Assembly (NCBI RefSeq): GCF_000455345.1
Contig: NZ_HG315690.1
Span: forward strand, 1,253,742 to 1,317,741
DNA: 64,000 bases
Direction of reading: 5' to 3'
From: Halopiger goleimassiliensis
Lineage (GTDB): Archaea > Halobacteriota > Halobacteria > Halobacteriales > Natrialbaceae
The stretch's first letter is position 1. Each line of letters begins with the position of its first letter. Of this stretch, positions 26,965 to 35,114 are shown piece after piece. Under the pieces are notes generated by a model. That model was not told the origin of the DNA, did not search any database, and worked only from the letters and a program-made list of their open reading frames with translations. The translations under genes and the position numbers were made by a program.

Positions 26965-28440
26965 TCAGTCCGCGGTGAGATCGACCAGCGACACGTCGTC
27001 GGGCACCCGCTCGAGGACCGACCGTGGCCAGCCCGCGTGACCGAGCGTCAGGTCCGCGTCGGGATTGGCCTCGGCGAGCGCGGCGACGCCGTCCGCCGCG
27101 GCCTCGAGGGCCGCCCGGTCGGTGCTGTCTGGCAGTTCGGCGGTCAGCGGATAGGTCTTCGACAGCGCCCGCGGGAAGGGGCCAAAGGGCGGCTCGACGC
27201 GCCAGGAGGCGTCGAACTCGTCGCTCCGCGGGGGCTGGCCCTCGGTGAGAAACAGCGAGTCGGGAACCGGGAGGCGCTCGAGTCGCCGGTGGTGACGCAG
27301 CACTTCGGGTCGGCGAGCGCTCTCGTGGGAGGTGTAGAAGAACGCGCCTTTCGAGACGGGATCCGAGGCCTCGAGTTGGGCGGCGTGATCGAGCAGCGTC
27401 CGGTAGCCGTCGAGCATCGTCGGGTGCGAGCGGGCCCGTTGTTCGACGAGTTCGAGCAGGTTCCCCGCGCGGATCGCTTGCTTGATCCGGCGCAGTTCCG
27501 CGAAGGAGACGTGGAGGTTGTGGGCAGCGAGTTCTTCCTCGCGTTCCTCGTCGGGGAGATTGCGGAGTTCATCGGGCGTGAAGTCGGCACAGACGGGACA
27601 CGAACAGGGCAGATACTCCAGATCCTCGAGGTGGCGGGTGCCCCGCACCGTGAGGTAGCGATCGTCGCGGGCGTACAGCGCGTACGCGGCGGAGTCGAAC
27701 AGGTCACAGCCCATCGCGACCCCGAGCGCGAACATCATGGGGTGGCCGGCACCGAAGAGGTGAACCGGTGCGTTGGCACCCAACCCGCGTTTCGCGGCCG
27801 TGACCACTTCGACCATATCGGCGTAGCGGTAGTCGTTCATCAGCGGGACGACCGCGCCGACGGGGAAGACGTCCAGCTCCGTCGCGTCGGCGTGGCGACC
27901 CGCCTCCTCGCGGAGATCCGGGTACGTCGATCCCTGGACGGGGGCGGTCACGAGCATGTCGCCGGTGTCGATCTCCTGGGCGCGCTCGAGTCGCTCCTGC
28001 GTGGTGGCGAGTTCGTCCTCGGCCCGCTCGCGGGGGACGTCCGGCGGCGTCGGGATGTCGACGGGCGTCCCGATGTCCGAGCCGATCCGGTACTGAAAGT
28101 CGAGGATCTCTTCGCTCGTGACGTCGATCTCGCCGTACTCCGAGAGCTGGAACGAGCCGGAGTCGGTCATGATCGCCCCGGGGAAATCGAGCATCGCGTG
28201 CAGTCCCTCCTCGAGGGCGCGTTCGCGGACGTCCTCGGTGCCGTGGATGATGTAGGAGTTGGTGATCAGGATCTCGGCACCGAACTCGTCGGCCAGGCGC
28301 TGCGGACTGATGGTATCCAGATTCGGATTGATCACCGGCAGCAACGCCGGCGTCTCGACGGTCGTCCCCGCCCGCGGAACGGAGAGATCGCCGATCCGCC
28401 CGCCGGCGTCGGCGTCCCGGATCTCGAAGTGCTCGCGCAT
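26965..28440 (-). CDS. tgtA: Archaeosine tRNA-guanine transglycosylase (TgtA)
   Basis: 491 residues from the ATG at 28440 ([11 protein letters not shown]). It swaps guanine 15 of tRNA for preQ0, the first step of archaeosine synthesis. The catalytic domain shows M-T-D-S-G-S-F-Q with the key Asp93. The zinc motif C-S-C-P-V-C lies near residue 280 with a following His. The C-terminal part is shorter than in thermophiles, because the PUA region is usually a separate protein in haloarchaea. RaSEA, a later enzyme of the pathway, is encoded at 52649-53749. An in-frame ATG at 28464 is less conserved. Confidence 0.95.
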
Positions 28441-28760
28441 CGACCGCCCGTTGGTCGCTGGCACGTAAGTCAGTGCAGGTTTCCCGCCGACGACCCGTTC
28501 GATAGCCCGGTCGTCGTGTCAACCCGGCTACGATAAGCGATCCGTTCTCCGTCAGGCATATATGCGACCGCGATTGCAAGCCCAACTGACAGTCCGCTCG
28601 AGCGAGGGTTCCGCTCGCACCCGACGCCTGACCGTCACACTCCGAACGAGATGAAAACGCCATTATCGACCGTTTCAGGCTTCAATCAGCGCACTTGACT
28701 GATCCAATCGCGAAACGGTCGGCTCGTTTTACCCGGTCGGCTCCCCGTAGCCTCGAGCGC
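28441..28760. other. 320-bp divergent intergenic region
   Basis: It lies between tgtA (leftward) and the first pentapeptide-island gene (rightward). It holds a 10-bp perfect palindrome GCATATATGC at 28556-28565 that could act as a TATA box in either direction, a short hairpin CGAGCG/CGCTCG near 28600, and the CTCGTTTTA promoter element at 28723-28731. No ORF with coding character was seen. Confidence 0.5.
28723..28731 (+). promoter_or_regulatory. Promoter element CTCGTTTTA of paralogue A
   Basis: The element ends 30 nt before the ATG at 28761. The same nonamer lies at the same distance before paralogue B (30492-30500), though the sequence between element and start differs. Conservation after duplication supports a functional TATA/BRE. 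Confidence 0.55.
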
Positions 28761-30176
28761 ATGGTTTCACGATCACAGACGCTCGGAGTGGTACTGGTCG
28801 CACTGATGGTCGCCCTCTCCGGAGGGCCGGCCCTGGCCGGTGCGGCCGCACCCGCGGACGATGGAACAGAGACGACAGTCACACTGCAAGATACCGACGT
28901 CCAGACGCTCGAACTCGACACCGTCACCGTCGAGAACGCGACGATCGAGGAGCTGACCGTCGAGCAGCTGGACGGCGACGCTGACCAGCTACAGGACGCC
29001 GTCGACGACGGTAGCGACGACGCGGGCGCTGCCGACGACGCTTCCGCAGACGAGGAAGACGGCGCGATGGACGACGAAGACGAGAGCGACGCCGACGAAG
29101 ACGCCGGCGTCGAGAGCGACGACAACGCCAGCGACGGCGAGGAGGTCACGCTCTCGGACGTCGAGATCGAACAGCTCGAGCTCGAGGACGTGAGCCTCGA
29201 GGAGCTCGAGACCGGCGGACAGGACGACGAGAACGCCACTGCCGACGACGAAGACGACGCGATGGATGACAGCGACGTCGGCGAGGACGACGCGATGGGC
29301 GACGAGGACGACGGGACGAACGACACCGCGACTGACGACACCGAAACCGAGACCGACGACGTTCTGGTCGACGAGGACACCGAGGAGGTCACCGTCCAGG
29401 ACCTCACCATCGAGACCATGGACGTCGAACAACTGACGATCGAGGACGTCTCGATCGAGGACGGAGAGACCGACGCCGCGGACGACGAGACCGGCGTCGA
29501 TAGCGAGGACGACGCTGACGCCGAAAACGCCACGACCGACGACGAAGACGATGCCACTGCCGACGAGGACGACGCGATGGGTACCGATGACGACGCAACC
29601 GACGCAGAAGACGACGCCACTGCCGACGACGAAGACGCGATGGAAGACGACGAGACCCAGGCCAGTGGCGAAGAGTACGAGGAACTCACCGTCGAGCAGT
29701 TCGACGTCGAGGAGATGACGATCGAGTCCATGACCGTCGAGTCGGTCGACGCCGCCGACGAGACCGACGACGCGATGGACGACACCGAGACCGACGACAC
29801 GATGGGCGACGACACCGAGACCGACGCGGCCGACGCCGAAGACGGCGACATGGCCTCCGACGCCGAGGACGATACCGGCGTCGGCGACGAAGACGCCACG
29901 ACCGACGACGCCGAGAACGGCCTCGACGACGAGACCGACGGGGAGACCATCGAGGAGCTGTCCGCATCGACGGTCGATATCGGCGACGCGACCGCCGAGT
30001 CGTTCGTCATCGGCGAGGCGGAGGGCCTCGAGGACGCCGGTGAGGACGACACCGAAACGGAGGACGCCGGCGGCGACGGCGTCCTCGACGACGGGAACGA
30101 GACCGACGACGAAAACGAGACTGACGACGAGCAAGAGGACGATGATGGCTTCCTCGCCGTCCCCGTCCTGAGCTAA
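28761..30176 (+). CDS. Secreted acidic protein with five pentapeptide-repeat islands (paralogue A)
   Basis: 471 residues. A signal peptide (1 to about 30, ending A-L-A-G-A-A-A) is followed by five short islands with a five-residue period of the form hydrophobic-Thr/Asp/Ser-Val/Ile-Glu-x (for example L-T-V-E-Q, F-D-V-E-E, M-T-I-E-S), at about 39-70, 129-150, 210-233, 309-330 and 396-420. Between them are long Asp/Glu/Thr linkers with D-D-A-M-D-D-type repeats. The islands would suit a right-handed quadrilateral beta-helix. No catalytic motif, anchor or cysteine is seen. The next gene is its paralogue. Function unknown; a cell-surface or biofilm-type role is speculation. Confidence 0.75.
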   Translation: MVSRSQTLGVVLVALMVALSGGPALAGAAAPADDGTETTVTLQDTDVQTLELDTVTVENATIEELTVEQLDGDADQLQDAVDDGSDDAGAADDASADEEDGAMDDEDESDADEDAGVESDDNASDGEEVTLSDVEIEQLELEDVSLEELETGGQDDENATADDEDDAMDDSDVGEDDAMGDEDDGTNDTATDDTETETDDVLVDEDTEEVTVQDLTIETMDVEQLTIEDVSIEDGETDAADDETGVDSEDDADAENATTDDEDDATADEDDAMGTDDDATDAEDDATADDEDAMEDDETQASGEEYEELTVEQFDVEEMTIESMTVESVDAADETDDAMDDTETDDTMGDDTETDAADAEDGDMASDAEDDTGVGDEDATTDDAENGLDDETDGETIEELSASTVDIGDATAESFVIGEAEGLEDAGEDDTETEDAGGDGVLDDGNETDDENETDDEQEDDDGFLAVPVLS

Positions 30177-30529
30177 TCGAACGACGTCCGCGACCGGAAC
30201 TGCCCGCTCGGTACCCGATTCGATTCACCGCGGCTTTTTCGACGTACTCACGCACTCCACCGATCACCGGACCGTCGTCTCGCCGCCCGGACCTGTCAGC
30301 GGTAACCACTCGTTCCCGGTTGCCCGACATAATCAGGTAGCGACGGCAAGCGAAACCCAGTTGCTGGGCGATCTGAGACCTGCGATAGGCGCGACTGACG
30401 ATCACGCCGACTGAGATGATGAACGCGTGATTAGCGAACTCGGCGTGCGAGCCAACTCGTCCTTTCCCGGAGACAACGCTGTAACAGTCGCCTCGTTTTA
30501 GCGGGCCGACAGTCGGTAGTGTCGGGCGC
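30177..30529. other. 353-bp intergenic region between the two paralogues
   Basis: No coding ORF was recognised. The only clear element is CTCGTTTTA at 30492-30500 before paralogue B. The rest has somewhat lower GC than coding DNA but no strong repeat. It is not a copy of the region upstream of paralogue A except for the last 40 bp or so. Confidence 0.5.
30492..30500 (+). promoter_or_regulatory. Promoter element CTCGTTTTA of paralogue B
   Basis: Identical to the element before paralogue A and likewise ending 30 nt before the ATG (30530). See that entry. Confidence 0.55.
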
Positions 30530-31840
30530 ATGGTCTCACGATCACAGACGCTATCAGTGGCCGTCGTCGCACTGCTGGTCGCCCTCTCCGGCGGCCCCGC
30601 TATGGCGGGTGCGGCGTCGACCACAGCGGACACACAGGAGACGAGCGCAACGCTCGAGAACGTACAGGTCGGCGAACTCGAACTCGAGAGCGCTACCGTC
30701 GAGAACGCCACCATCGAGGAACTGAACGTCTCGGAGCTCGAACTCGAGGCCCAGCAACTCGAGGAACAACTCGAACAGCAGGAAGGCGAGCAGAACCAGA
30801 CACAGGACGAAGAGACCGAAGAGACCGGAATGCAGGCCAACGAGACCGAGGAGGACCAGGAGGGCACCGAGGCGGACAGCCAGGAGCTCGAGCAGGCCCA
30901 GGACGTGACGATCTCCGACATCGAAATCGAACAACTGGAACTGTCGACGGTCACGTACGAGGAGCTCCAGACCGGTGAGGACGGAGCGACCAACGAGACC
31001 GAAAACGCCACTGAGACCGACGGCGGGGAGGAAGAAACAAACGAGACGGACGACGAGATGGGTGACGAGAACGCCACCGCCGACGCGACGGCGCAGGCCG
31101 GAACCCAGGACGACGCGATGGACGGCGGGCAGGAACTGTTCGACGAGAACGCCGACGAAGTTACCGTCCAGGACCTCACCATCGAGACGATGGACGTCGA
31201 ACGGATGACGATCGAGGACCTCTCCGTCGAGGAGGGCGGGATCCTCAATCAGATCGGTGACTGGTTCAGCGGCCTGTTCGGTGGCGACGACGGCGGTGGA
31301 GAGGAGACCGACAACGAGACGGCCGGACAGGAGAACGAAACCGCCCAGGAAGACGGAGGCGACGAGGAGACGACCACCCAGGAGATCGACGAACTCACCA
31401 TCGAACAGTTCGACGTCGAGAGCATCTCGATCACCTCGATGACCATCGAGACCCTCGAAGAGGCCGGCGAAAGCGACGGCGAGAACACCACGACCGACGA
31501 GTCCGGTAACGAGACCGAGACGGCCGACGAATCGGCCAGCGTCGCCGCCGCACAGGAAGACGAAACCGAGGGCGACACGATGGACGACGGGGCGGCCACC
31601 AACGAGACCGAAGACGGCACGACCGAGACGGTCTCCCAGGCCAACGCAACCGCGATCTCCATCGACGACGTGACCGCCAACACCGTGACCCTCGGCGACG
31701 CGCAGGACCTCGAGCAGATCACCGAACAGAACGCCACTGAGACGACCGACGGGACCGAGAACGACACCGCCACCGAGGACGGTACGACCGAGGACACCGA
31801 CAACGAATCGGAACAGCCGTCGATCGCCGTCGGTCGGTAA
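30530..31840 (+). CDS. Secreted acidic, sequon-rich protein with five pentapeptide-repeat islands (paralogue B)
   Basis: 436 residues. Its signal peptide is almost the same as in paralogue A (starts MVSRSQTL). The five islands align with those of A: V-T-V-Q-D-L-T-I-E-T-M-D-V-E is identical in both, and I-E-Q-F-D-V-E-S closely follows V-E-Q-F-D-V-E-E. The linkers are unrelated: here they are Glu/Asn/Thr-rich and carry at least 15 N-x-S/T sequons, so heavy N-glycosylation is possible. An amphipathic insert with I-L-N-Q-I-G-D-W-F-S-G-L-F follows island three and is absent from A. No cysteine is present. Function unknown. Confidence 0.75.
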   Translation: MVSRSQTLSVAVVALLVALSGGPAMAGAASTTADTQETSATLENVQVGELELESATVENATIEELNVSELELEAQQLEEQLEQQEGEQNQTQDEETEETGMQANETEEDQEGTEADSQELEQAQDVTISDIEIEQLELSTVTYEELQTGEDGATNETENATETDGGEEETNETDDEMGDENATADATAQAGTQDDAMDGGQELFDENADEVTVQDLTIETMDVERMTIEDLSVEEGGILNQIGDWFSGLFGGDDGGGEETDNETAGQENETAQEDGGDEETTTQEIDELTIEQFDVESISITSMTIETLEEAGESDGENTTTDESGNETETADESASVAAAQEDETEGDTMDDGAATNETEDGTTETVSQANATAISIDDVTANTVTLGDAQDLEQITEQNATETTDGTENDTATEDGTTEDTDNESEQPSIAVGR

Positions 31841-31961: not shown

Positions 31962-32519
31962 TCAGTCGTCGCTCGAGTCGAACAGACGGTAGTAGGAGAC
32001 GGCCAGCACCGTCCGCCCGTCGCGGACCTCGCCCGCACGGACGGCCTCGAGCAACGTCTCGAACGGGGTCGGCTCCACGCGAATGCTCTCGTCGGGGTCG
32101 AGTTGCTGGTCGCCGGTCGGCCGGCAGTCGTGTGCCACGAAGAAGTGCAGGACTGAATCGGCGATCCCGTTGGTCGGTTCGACGGTTACCAGCGACTCGA
32201 GGCGGTCGGCCTCGTGGCCGGTCTCCTCGGCGAGTTCGCGCCGGGCGGCGGCCTCGAGGTCGTCGTCGTCGGGTTCCGTGGTGCCGACGGGGAGGCCGCG
32301 GTTGACCCGGGAGACGGCCTGTCGCCACTCCTCGATGCAGACGACGTCGCCGTCCGGACGGAACGGGAGAACGCAGACCCCGGCGGGTTCGGAGAGGTAG
32401 TCGAACTCGGTTTCGGTACCGTCGGGAAGGCGAACCGTCTCGTTCACGACGTCGAAACCGGGGCAACTGTAGGCGGTCTCGCGCTCGAGCGTCTCCCAGG
32501 CGAGGGGATCGGACGACAT
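31962..32519 (-). CDS. Nudix hydrolase, ADP-ribose pyrophosphatase-like
   Basis: 185 residues from the ATG at 32519. The Nudix box is visible as G-T-T-E-P-D-x4-L-E-A-A-A-R-R-E-L-A-E-E-T-G-H, with the metal-binding E-L-A-E-E-T-G intact and a slightly long spacing from the first Gly. The preceding strands (V-C-V-L-P-F, V-V-C-I-E-E-W-R-Q) resemble ADP-ribose pyrophosphatases. The substrate is likely a nucleoside diphosphate sugar, not determined. Confidence 0.88.
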   Translation of the reverse strand: MSSDPLAWETLERETAYSCPGFDVVNETVRLPDGTETEFDYLSEPAGVCVLPFRPDGDVVCIEEWRQAVSRVNRGLPVGTTEPDDDDLEAAARRELAEETGHEADRLESLVTVEPTNGIADSVLHFFVAHDCRPTGDQQLDPDESIRVEPTPFETLLEAVRAGEVRDGRTVLAVSYYRLFDSSDD

Positions 32520-32701
32520 ACCGGCCCGTAGGGAAGGGGCTGTCAAAAACGCCCCGTCATCGCGGGGGCGAAATCGGTGCCGAACGGTGGATAACCCGGG
32601 AGATACGCGCCCTACGCGGTCCGTTCGGTCGGATCGCCGGACCGTACCACGCCTATAACAAAACCACGAATCGGTGAAGGTCGGTATTCAGAGGATGATC
32701 C

Positions 32702-33396: not shown

Positions 33397-34710
33397 TTAC
33401 GAGCCGCCCCTCGAGTCCGCTCCGTGTCCGTCCTCGTACCCCTCTTCGTTGGTCAGGGGCTGATCCGGCCCGACGTCGGAATCGTCGTCGTGAACGTCGC
33501 GATCCCCGTGGGCGTCACGGTCGCCGTGGCCTTCGCGGTCGTCATCGTGGCCTTCGCGGTCGTCATCGTGGCCTTCGCGGTCGCCGTGACCTTCGCGGTC
33601 GTCACCGTGGCCTTCGCGGTCCTCGTGGTCGCCATCGGGTTCGACGTCGCCGGTTTCCGGCTCGAGATCGTCGTCGGCGTCGTTGGTCCCGTCGATAGCG
33701 AGAGTGACCGTGAACGACCGATCCCCGACGTCGTCGTCGCGCTCGTCGCCCTCGTGCTCGCCAACGTCGTCGTGGTCCGGTCTCCCCTCCAGATAGCCGA
33801 TCGCATAGCCCGTGTAGACGGTCCCGGCCTCGAGGTCGAGATCGACGGACGCGGCCGGATCCTCGGGCCTGATCACGTCGTCGGGCACGTCGACGGCCCC
33901 CGGGTAATCGGCGTCGGCTTCCTCCGGTCGATCGTCGGTCCCCTCTCGATCACCGTCCGACTCGTAGGGATAGAGTTCGAGAGTACGTTCGCCGGCCACG
34001 ACGGGGGCGTAGCCGCTGGGTTCGGTGAACGAAACGTCCTCGAAGAGGATCGTTCCGGTCTCCCCGTCGGCGATCTCGACCGTCGGCGCGTCGGGGGCGG
34101 CGTGCACGAGTCGCAGGTGGGCAGTGTCGTCCTCCTCGATGGCGTCGGGTTGGCGGTCGACGAGGAACAGGAGTTCGAAGGTGCCGGGACCGTCGCTCGG
34201 TTCCGCCGCGTCGCCGTCGTCGTCGGCCCCGTCGTCCATCTCGTCGCCCCCGTGATCGTCCGCCGCGGCGTGGTCCTCGTCGTGTGCCGCGTCGGGGCTG
34301 TCCTCGTCATCTTCGTCGTGGGCCTCGTCGGCCTCGAGTTCGCCGATCGCGGCGGCGGTGTAGTACTCCGTATCGACCGAGATATGTCGCTGGTAGACGA
34401 CGGTCTCGGGATCGTCCGCGGGCGTGATCGTCACCTTGTAGTCGCCGGGAACGATCTCGAGGTACGGGGAGCGTTCGTCGTAGCCGAGACCGGCGAGGAT
34501 TCGGTCGTCGTCGACGTAGACGTCCACCTCGGGTGCGTCAGGCGAGAAGTGAGCGACCCGGATCGCACCCATCTCCGCGTCGTCGGGGACCGCCTCGGGG
34601 TCCCGTTCGTCGTCTTCGTGTTGGTTGACCGCCAGAACGGTGCCGGAGAGCGTCGAACCGGCACCGACGACACCGATCGCCTTGATCGTGGATCGTCGTG
34701 ATAGCGTCAT
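33397..34710 (-). CDS. Secreted protein with two DUF4397-like domains and a His/Asp-rich repeat tail
   Basis: 437 residues from the ATG at 34710. S-R-R-S-T-I-K-A-I-G is a Tat signal. Two DUF4397-like beta domains start at about 49 (V-A-H-F-S-P-D-A-P) and 199 (L-V-H-A-A-P-D-A-P), separated by a His/Asp-rich linker (about 130-165). The C-terminal stretch 361-410 is a tandem repeat of D-R-E-G-H-G-D and D-R-E-G-H-D-D-D units with about 8 His, which could bind metal ions. DUF4397 proteins are usually cell-surface. A GTG two codons upstream is a weaker start. Confidence 0.82.
   Translation of the reverse strand: MTLSRRSTIKAIGVVGAGSTLSGTVLAVNQHEDDERDPEAVPDDAEMGAIRVAHFSPDAPEVDVYVDDDRILAGLGYDERSPYLEIVPGDYKVTITPADDPETVVYQRHISVDTEYYTAAAIGELEADEAHDEDDEDSPDAAHDEDHAAADDHGGDEMDDGADDDGDAAEPSDGPGTFELLFLVDRQPDAIEEDDTAHLRLVHAAPDAPTVEIADGETGTILFEDVSFTEPSGYAPVVAGERTLELYPYESDGDREGTDDRPEEADADYPGAVDVPDDVIRPEDPAASVDLDLEAGTVYTGYAIGYLEGRPDHDDVGEHEGDERDDDVGDRSFTVTLAIDGTNDADDDLEPETGDVEPDGDHEDREGHGDDREGHGDREGHDDDREGHDDDREGHGDRDAHGDRDVHDDDSDVGPDQPLTNEEGYEDGHGADSRGGS
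33481..33630. repeat. Tandem coding repeat (about 18-24 bp units)
   Basis: Units of the type GTCATCGTGGCCTTCGCG recur several times inside the 3' part of the DUF4397 gene and encode the D-R-E-G-H repeats. Unit number is likely to vary between strains by slippage. Confidence 0.7.
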
Positions 34711-35114
34711 CGGCACCCGGAACGGGGACCGACGATCCGAAAAACGGCTCAGTCAGTTAGCCGGATTTTCCTCTCCTTTCCACCGACGGGCGAACCCAAG
34801 GATTCCCATAACTCGTCGAAATCGGTTCCTACAACCGGACTCTCCGGCGTGAACCCGGGCGGTCACCACGAGACGAGCGGGTCGCCGAACGCGGCGGCGT
34901 CACCCCCGCTCGAACCGGTCGAGGATCGTCTCGAGGCCGGCAGTACGGCGTCGATACGCGGACGCTTCTCGCCGTAATTCCGCCGTACGGGGCAGTTAGG
35001 CACTCGATTCGGACACCGTCACCGTCGCCCGCTCGAGAATCAGTGCGACCACGTGCGGGGACCGCCGATCCGTGACCGCCCGGCTCGACGGTCGGCCACA
35101 CTGGCCAATGGAGA
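34711..35114. other. 404-bp intergenic region
   Basis: It lies upstream of the DUF4397 gene and downstream of a small lipoprotein gene. A weak inverted repeat GTACGGCG/CGCCGTAC (34943-34950, 34981-34988) was seen. Nothing else was recognised. Confidence 0.4.

Follow-up and report, generated by a model that had tools for sequence, protein, structure and literature searches.

Tandem genes for predicted Sec-exported proteins of an uncharacterised haloarchaeal family with five pentapeptide-repeat-like islands, possibly the rungs of a single beta-solenoid

Pentapeptide repeat proteins (PF00805/PF13599) form a right-handed quadrilateral beta-helix and, as set out in passages of PMC8145042, have eight or more repeats in an unbroken run, four to each coil, a consensus in which Leu or Phe occupies the centre, and loops of 6-24 residues. 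The proteins A and B encoded in the window (the whole stretch of 64,000 nucleotides that was analysed) and their relatives share with them the period of five, the spacing of two between inward-facing residues, a turn of about four pentads and weak matches to Pfam. Among 1696 pentads of the A/B family the preferences were h-T-(V/I)-E-x, and the centre residue was Val (37%) or Ile (37%) in 74% and Leu (20%) or Phe (5%) in 25%; the first position was usually large (Leu/Val/Met), whereas it is small in pentapeptide repeat proteins, and the loops between turns are of 20-122 residues. Runs are of 3-7 pentads; the longest is seven in B island 1 and five in A, and the islands of distant members hold six or fewer. 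PF13599 (Pentapeptide_4) was matched weakly in 12 of 82 members (best E 0.0046), and by the distant member L123 with E 2.5e-4 and 21.5 bits against a cutoff of 38. Canonical membership was rejected because of the short runs, the Val/Ile centre and the Pfam scores below cutoff; the family probably works like a pentapeptide solenoid, yet it is not classed as a member. The SV2 luminal domain, a further comparison, is a glycan-bearing pentapeptide solenoid outside the cytoplasm with only about five turns (four-and-a-half to five coils), but it lies within a 12-TM transporter, its coils are without long disordered loops between each and its sequence is unrelated. As the first-pass annotation had supposed, no named family was recognised for A and B, which are without Pfam hits and gave no Pfam or NCBIfam match above threshold. 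Sequence searches of the PDB returned nothing above threshold, the papers searched on haloarchaeal pentapeptide repeats and acidic secreted proteins contained no description of the family, and a plasmid or phage origin was rejected, with no match in either collection.

Judged from their sequences, A and B are paralogues in tandem that belong to an uncharacterised family of haloarchaeal proteins with predicted Sec export (Table 1). They align over their length with 40% identity (E 3e-42), and no further copies were found in their own genome. The first-pass annotation had described two adjacent paralogues with a common signal peptide and five islands of strict five-residue period in the same order, island 3 being nearly identical, and this description was borne out, the genes lying at exactly the positions given: the signal peptide is of Sec type and recurs in the family alignment, the islands consist of strict h-x-h-x-x pentads, and island 3 is the same at 20 of 25 positions. 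Pentads in runs of at least three numbered 17 in A and 19 in B; in 2000 shuffles the mean was 0.07 for A and 0.04 for B, and the highest count was 4 for A and 6 for B. The different linker chemistries that had been claimed were also found; A is 27% Asp and B 21% Glu. The N-x-S/T count of B, put earlier at 15 or more, was 17 against 4.3 expected; A has seven sequons (1.2 expected). A hydrophobic core, an AxA-like cleavage region and the absence of a Tat motif and a lipobox were judged by eye for the signal peptides, of which the pattern MVSR.Q..GVVFVALLVALSGGPALAGA is kept across the family alignment.

Table 1. Positions of the tandem genes, their parts and their neighbours in the window.
Feature	Position	Strand	Description	Basis
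Upstream element of A	28713..28731	+	Family-specific, AAACGGTCGGCTCGTTTTA, about 30-48 nt before the ATG, TTTTA TATA-like core	
Gene A	28761..30176	+	471 aa, tgtA-proximal (A-type) paralogue, Asp-rich linkers	Sequence, alignment, synteny
Signal peptide of A	28761..28844	+	Predicted Sec-type, about 28 aa, lacking a twin arginine and a lipobox cysteine	Sequence, family alignment
A island 1	28878..28970	+	aa 40-70	Pentad-run analysis
A island 2	29145..29210	+	aa 129-150	Pentad-run analysis
A island 3	29388..29462	+	aa 210-234	Pentad-run analysis
A island 4	29685..29747	+	aa 309-329	Pentad-run analysis
A island 5	29958..30023	+	aa 400-421	Pentad-run analysis
Upstream element of B	30482..30500	+	Family-specific, TAACAGTCGCCTCGTTTTA	
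Gene B	30530..31840	+	436 aa, B-type (NUDIX-proximal) paralogue with 17 sequons, linkers rich in Glu/Asn/Thr	
Signal peptide of B	30530..30613	+	Predicted Sec-type	Sequence, family alignment
B island 1	30647..30751	+	aa 40-74	Pentad runs; model strand aa 55-72
B island 2	30905..30967	+	aa 126-146	Pentad runs; model strand aa 126-148
B island 3	31160..31234	+	aa 211-235	Pentad runs; model strand aa 210-233
Amphipathic helix segment of B	31238..31279	+	Predicted, GILNQIGDWFSGLF, aa 237-250	AlphaFold model, family comparison
B island 4	31394..31456	+	aa 289-309	Pentad runs; model strand aa 283-311
B island 5	31640..31702	+	aa 371-391	Family pentad analysis; model strand aa 365-388
tRNA-guanine transglycosylase	26965..28464	-	tgtA-like, PF01702, divergent conserved neighbour	
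NUDIX hydrolase	31962..32546	-	PF00293, convergent conserved neighbour	
DUF4397 acidic protein	33397-34716	-	TAT-like signal	

Relatives were found by protein searches in 99 of 125 Natrialbaceae genomes. A profile search of 394 genomes from a sample of the order gave matches in 106, four other families included; outside Natrialbaceae the family is rarer and is present in other Halobacteriales, and no match beyond Halobacteriales was obtained in a phylum sample of 394 genomes. Named carriers include Natrinema, Haloterrigena, Natronorubrum, Natrarchaeobius, Halopiger and Halorussus. The presence of the family in most Natrialbaceae genomes suggests importance at the cell surface, and exported proteins that have no Pfam or NCBIfam name, lie behind an upstream element nearly exclusive to their genes and occur in about four fifths of the Natrialbaceae genomes probably have a general role at the haloarchaeal surface. 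The member set comprised 89 complete or near-complete sequences, to which about ten distant members were added. In three of the latter, which come from other families (L047, L119 and L123), additional sequence follows or surrounds the islands and matches Ig-like domain families such as BatD and Transglut_C weakly, and the linkers of L047 and L123 are Thr/Glu-rich. A giant relative of 815 aa with greatly expanded linkers was seen in the A position (L057:6163-8607).

The synteny, the distribution of the amphipathic segment and the upstream element are new here. The gene order tgtA(-), A(+), B(+), NUDIX(-) is widely kept in related genomes; the two copies are separated in several Natrinema-type genomes, with one copy by tgtA and the other by NUDIX, and many genomes have a single copy. 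A segment like GI(L/V/I)xxIxDFFxGLF follows island 3 in every NUDIX-proximal copy and in nearly all single-copy genes, and it is absent from every tgtA-proximal copy of a pair and from two single-copy A-like genes (L055 and L087). The distant members L120 and L121 have a similar segment, so an ancestral origin with loss in A is probable. In quick gene trees the A-type sequences did not form one clade, A-type monophyly was not rejected (p-AU 0.75), and a single duplication behind the A-type and the B-type would be allowed by these trees.

The upstream element, AACAGTCNNCTCGTTTTAGCC, lies about 27-48 nt before the ATG and was found almost only ahead of A/B-family genes. Alignment of 89 upstream regions gave the conserved block (G)TAACAGTC-NN-CTCG-TTTTA-GCC, of which distant members keep a looser TTTA-like core only. 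With a 21-base pattern and at most two mismatches, 128 hits were obtained in the 125 Natrialbaceae genomes; by comparison of their positions with the gene searches, about 123 were placed immediately ahead of family genes and the other five at unrelated sites. The reversed pattern gave one hit in the 125 genomes, and the window holds both copies of the element against 0.03 expected. No regulon sharing the element was found in the own genome and the 125 family genomes, the off-site hits being near unrelated or no reading frames. By what is general for haloarchaeal promoters, the spacing is that of a leaderless transcript if TTTTA is taken as the TATA-like core, and we infer that the element is the promoter of the family genes. 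An orphan element was observed on the minus strand of L141 (genome G015), at about position 1221 of the reverse strand, on the contig stretch that holds tgtA and NUDIX; this stretch has no detectable family gene, and the family gene of the genome is at L146.

Mean pairwise identity was 0.68, 0.58, 0.59, 0.63 and 0.47 for islands 1-5, respectively, and 0.19-0.24 for linkers 1-5, the latter values depending on the alignment of low-complexity sequence; the claim that the islands evolve more slowly than the linkers survives this comparison. The further statement that conservation is confined to the islands was too narrow, as the signal peptide, the upstream element and the B-type amphipathic segment are conserved as well. 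Islands 2-5 differ in length by at most one residue, whereas the linkers span 20-122 aa. All five islands, each with at least three pentads and in the same order, were present in 71 of 92 members, four in 20 and three in one. Lag-5 autocorrelation of the hydrophobicity profile over 82 homologues was 0.99-1.00 for islands 1-4 and 0.70 for island 5.

The reading that we prefer, and to which we give about an even chance, is that the five islands are the rungs of one short pentapeptide-repeat-like beta-solenoid, with the linkers and the tail as long disordered loops. The AlphaFold model of B, run with 82 family sequences, had a pTM of 0.50 and confident strand in all islands, with islands 2-5 mostly at pLDDT 67-92 and the linkers mostly low. 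A second model, of the shortest-linker orthologue (L050:5535-6563, 343 aa, 92 sequences), reached a pTM of 0.64, its island blocks lying for the most part at pLDDT 86-96 and about a third of its residues below 50; such values are read with the caveat that a periodic sequence can bias AlphaFold toward solenoids. Taken over the models, pLDDT was 84-96 in islands and mostly under 50-60 in linkers. By DSSP, nearly every island residue was strand or bridge in both models; the first two pentads of island 1 were highly conserved and yet below pLDDT 50 in the L050:5535-6563 model. With five residues to a face, an island of 20-25 residues completes about one turn, so that strand throughout it points to pairing with other islands, and a pTM of 0.64 is near the ceiling set by the ordered part, so that mutually free islands are not expected. 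Going by the pTM and DSSP results, the most likely arrangement is a single solenoid of about five rungs, built of the stacked islands, from which the linkers loop out.

The first-pass annotation had taken the islands as structured and beta-helix-like and the linkers as disordered, with which the pLDDT values agree, and each island as a small module of its own, over which one shared core is favoured. Separate small beta modules on a disordered chain, or binding motifs that fold only on a partner, would suit islands that are each short and up to 122 residues apart; this arrangement is nevertheless probably wrong and is considered unlikely, since 4-6 pentads make about one turn and would have no neighbouring turn to pair with, strand runs through islands 2-5, the pTM of 0.64 is near what the ordered fraction allows, and island number and order are near-constant although modules of this kind typically duplicate and shuffle freely. 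Foldseek against the PDB and viral models gave nothing significant (best E 1.8, TM <0.1), and most of the weak structural hits in the PDB were to right-handed beta-helices, to pentapeptide proteins and to the luminal pentapeptide domain of SV2; alignment with the fold libraries probably fails because of the long loops.

Uncapped solenoids can stack end to end, and a self-assembling fibre subunit was considered, in which solenoid ends or islands would stack between chains (A with B or end-to-end) and the product would be a surface filament or a matrix amyloid-like fibre decorated by polyanionic loops. Co-expression of matching subunits is plausible, as A and B are mostly in tandem and have the same upstream element where both are present. 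The single copy in many genomes speaks against such a fibre, as do the short helices predicted after islands 1 and 5, which could be caps, and we regard it as rather improbable.

Linker chemistry varies between lineages. Linker Asp plus Glu averages 47-54% and reaches 76% in single members, and it falls to 9-16% in sequon-rich orthologues; across orthologues, sequon number and acidity were correlated with r = -0.81. At least ten sequons were counted in 42 members (4.3 times expectation) and fewer than five in 44 members (0.59 times expectation), with up to 53 in one protein of Haloterrigena salina. An acidic protein binding Mg2+ or Ca2+ or interacting with mineral through linkers of about 50% Asp/Glu, the islands being mere spacers, would account for the average acidity but is very improbable given the low acidity of the sequon-rich orthologues. 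As these orthologues swap out much of the acid, what the family conserves is the islands and not charge by itself. Natronorubrum, Natrarchaeobius and Natronobiforma, which we take to be soda-lake alkaliphiles, are Asp-rich, Natrinema and Haloterrigena are sequon-rich and Natronoglomus is intermediate; a link of linker chemistry with pH is a possible lead, confounded by phylogeny. The loci compared were L034, L038-L041 and L044 (sequon-rich) against L035, L037, L042 and L046 (Asp-rich). The family thereby offers a natural experiment, in which one core carries acidic loops or sequon-rich loops according to the lineage. The linker sequons may be used as N-glycosylation sites.

On the single-solenoid reading, each island of about 4-5 pentads would make about one four-sided turn, and the four linkers and the tail, polyacidic or rich in N-glycosylation sequons, would loop out. 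The rigid core might then carry a hydrated brush, anionic or of glycans, in the space beneath the S-layer or surrounding it, which is the weakest step. B may lie on the membrane or another partner via its amphipathic helix, and A, without this helix, may be a soluble or matrix form. A surface role is plausible from the signal peptide and the sequons, whereas the results have no bearing on the decoy role that the first-pass annotation had raised as speculation. For a secreted or peripheral surface protein whose solenoid shows polyanionic or glycosylated loops, the architecture is moderately likely and the role itself is a guess. The fuller proposal, a display scaffold of spaced rungs with loops switching between polyacidic and N-glycan-rich in different lineages and driven by a dedicated upstream element, is in our estimate as probable as not. 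If the fold is right, a solenoid tolerates long disordered insertions between every turn.

The neighbouring DUF4397 protein resembles A and B in being exported, in its acidic disordered stretches and in its conserved neighbourhood, and differs in its domain (PF14344), its weak TAT-like signal match and its lack of pentad islands. Its acidic stretches are long and include a REGHDDD-type repeat, and it is often found near the pair in related genomes.
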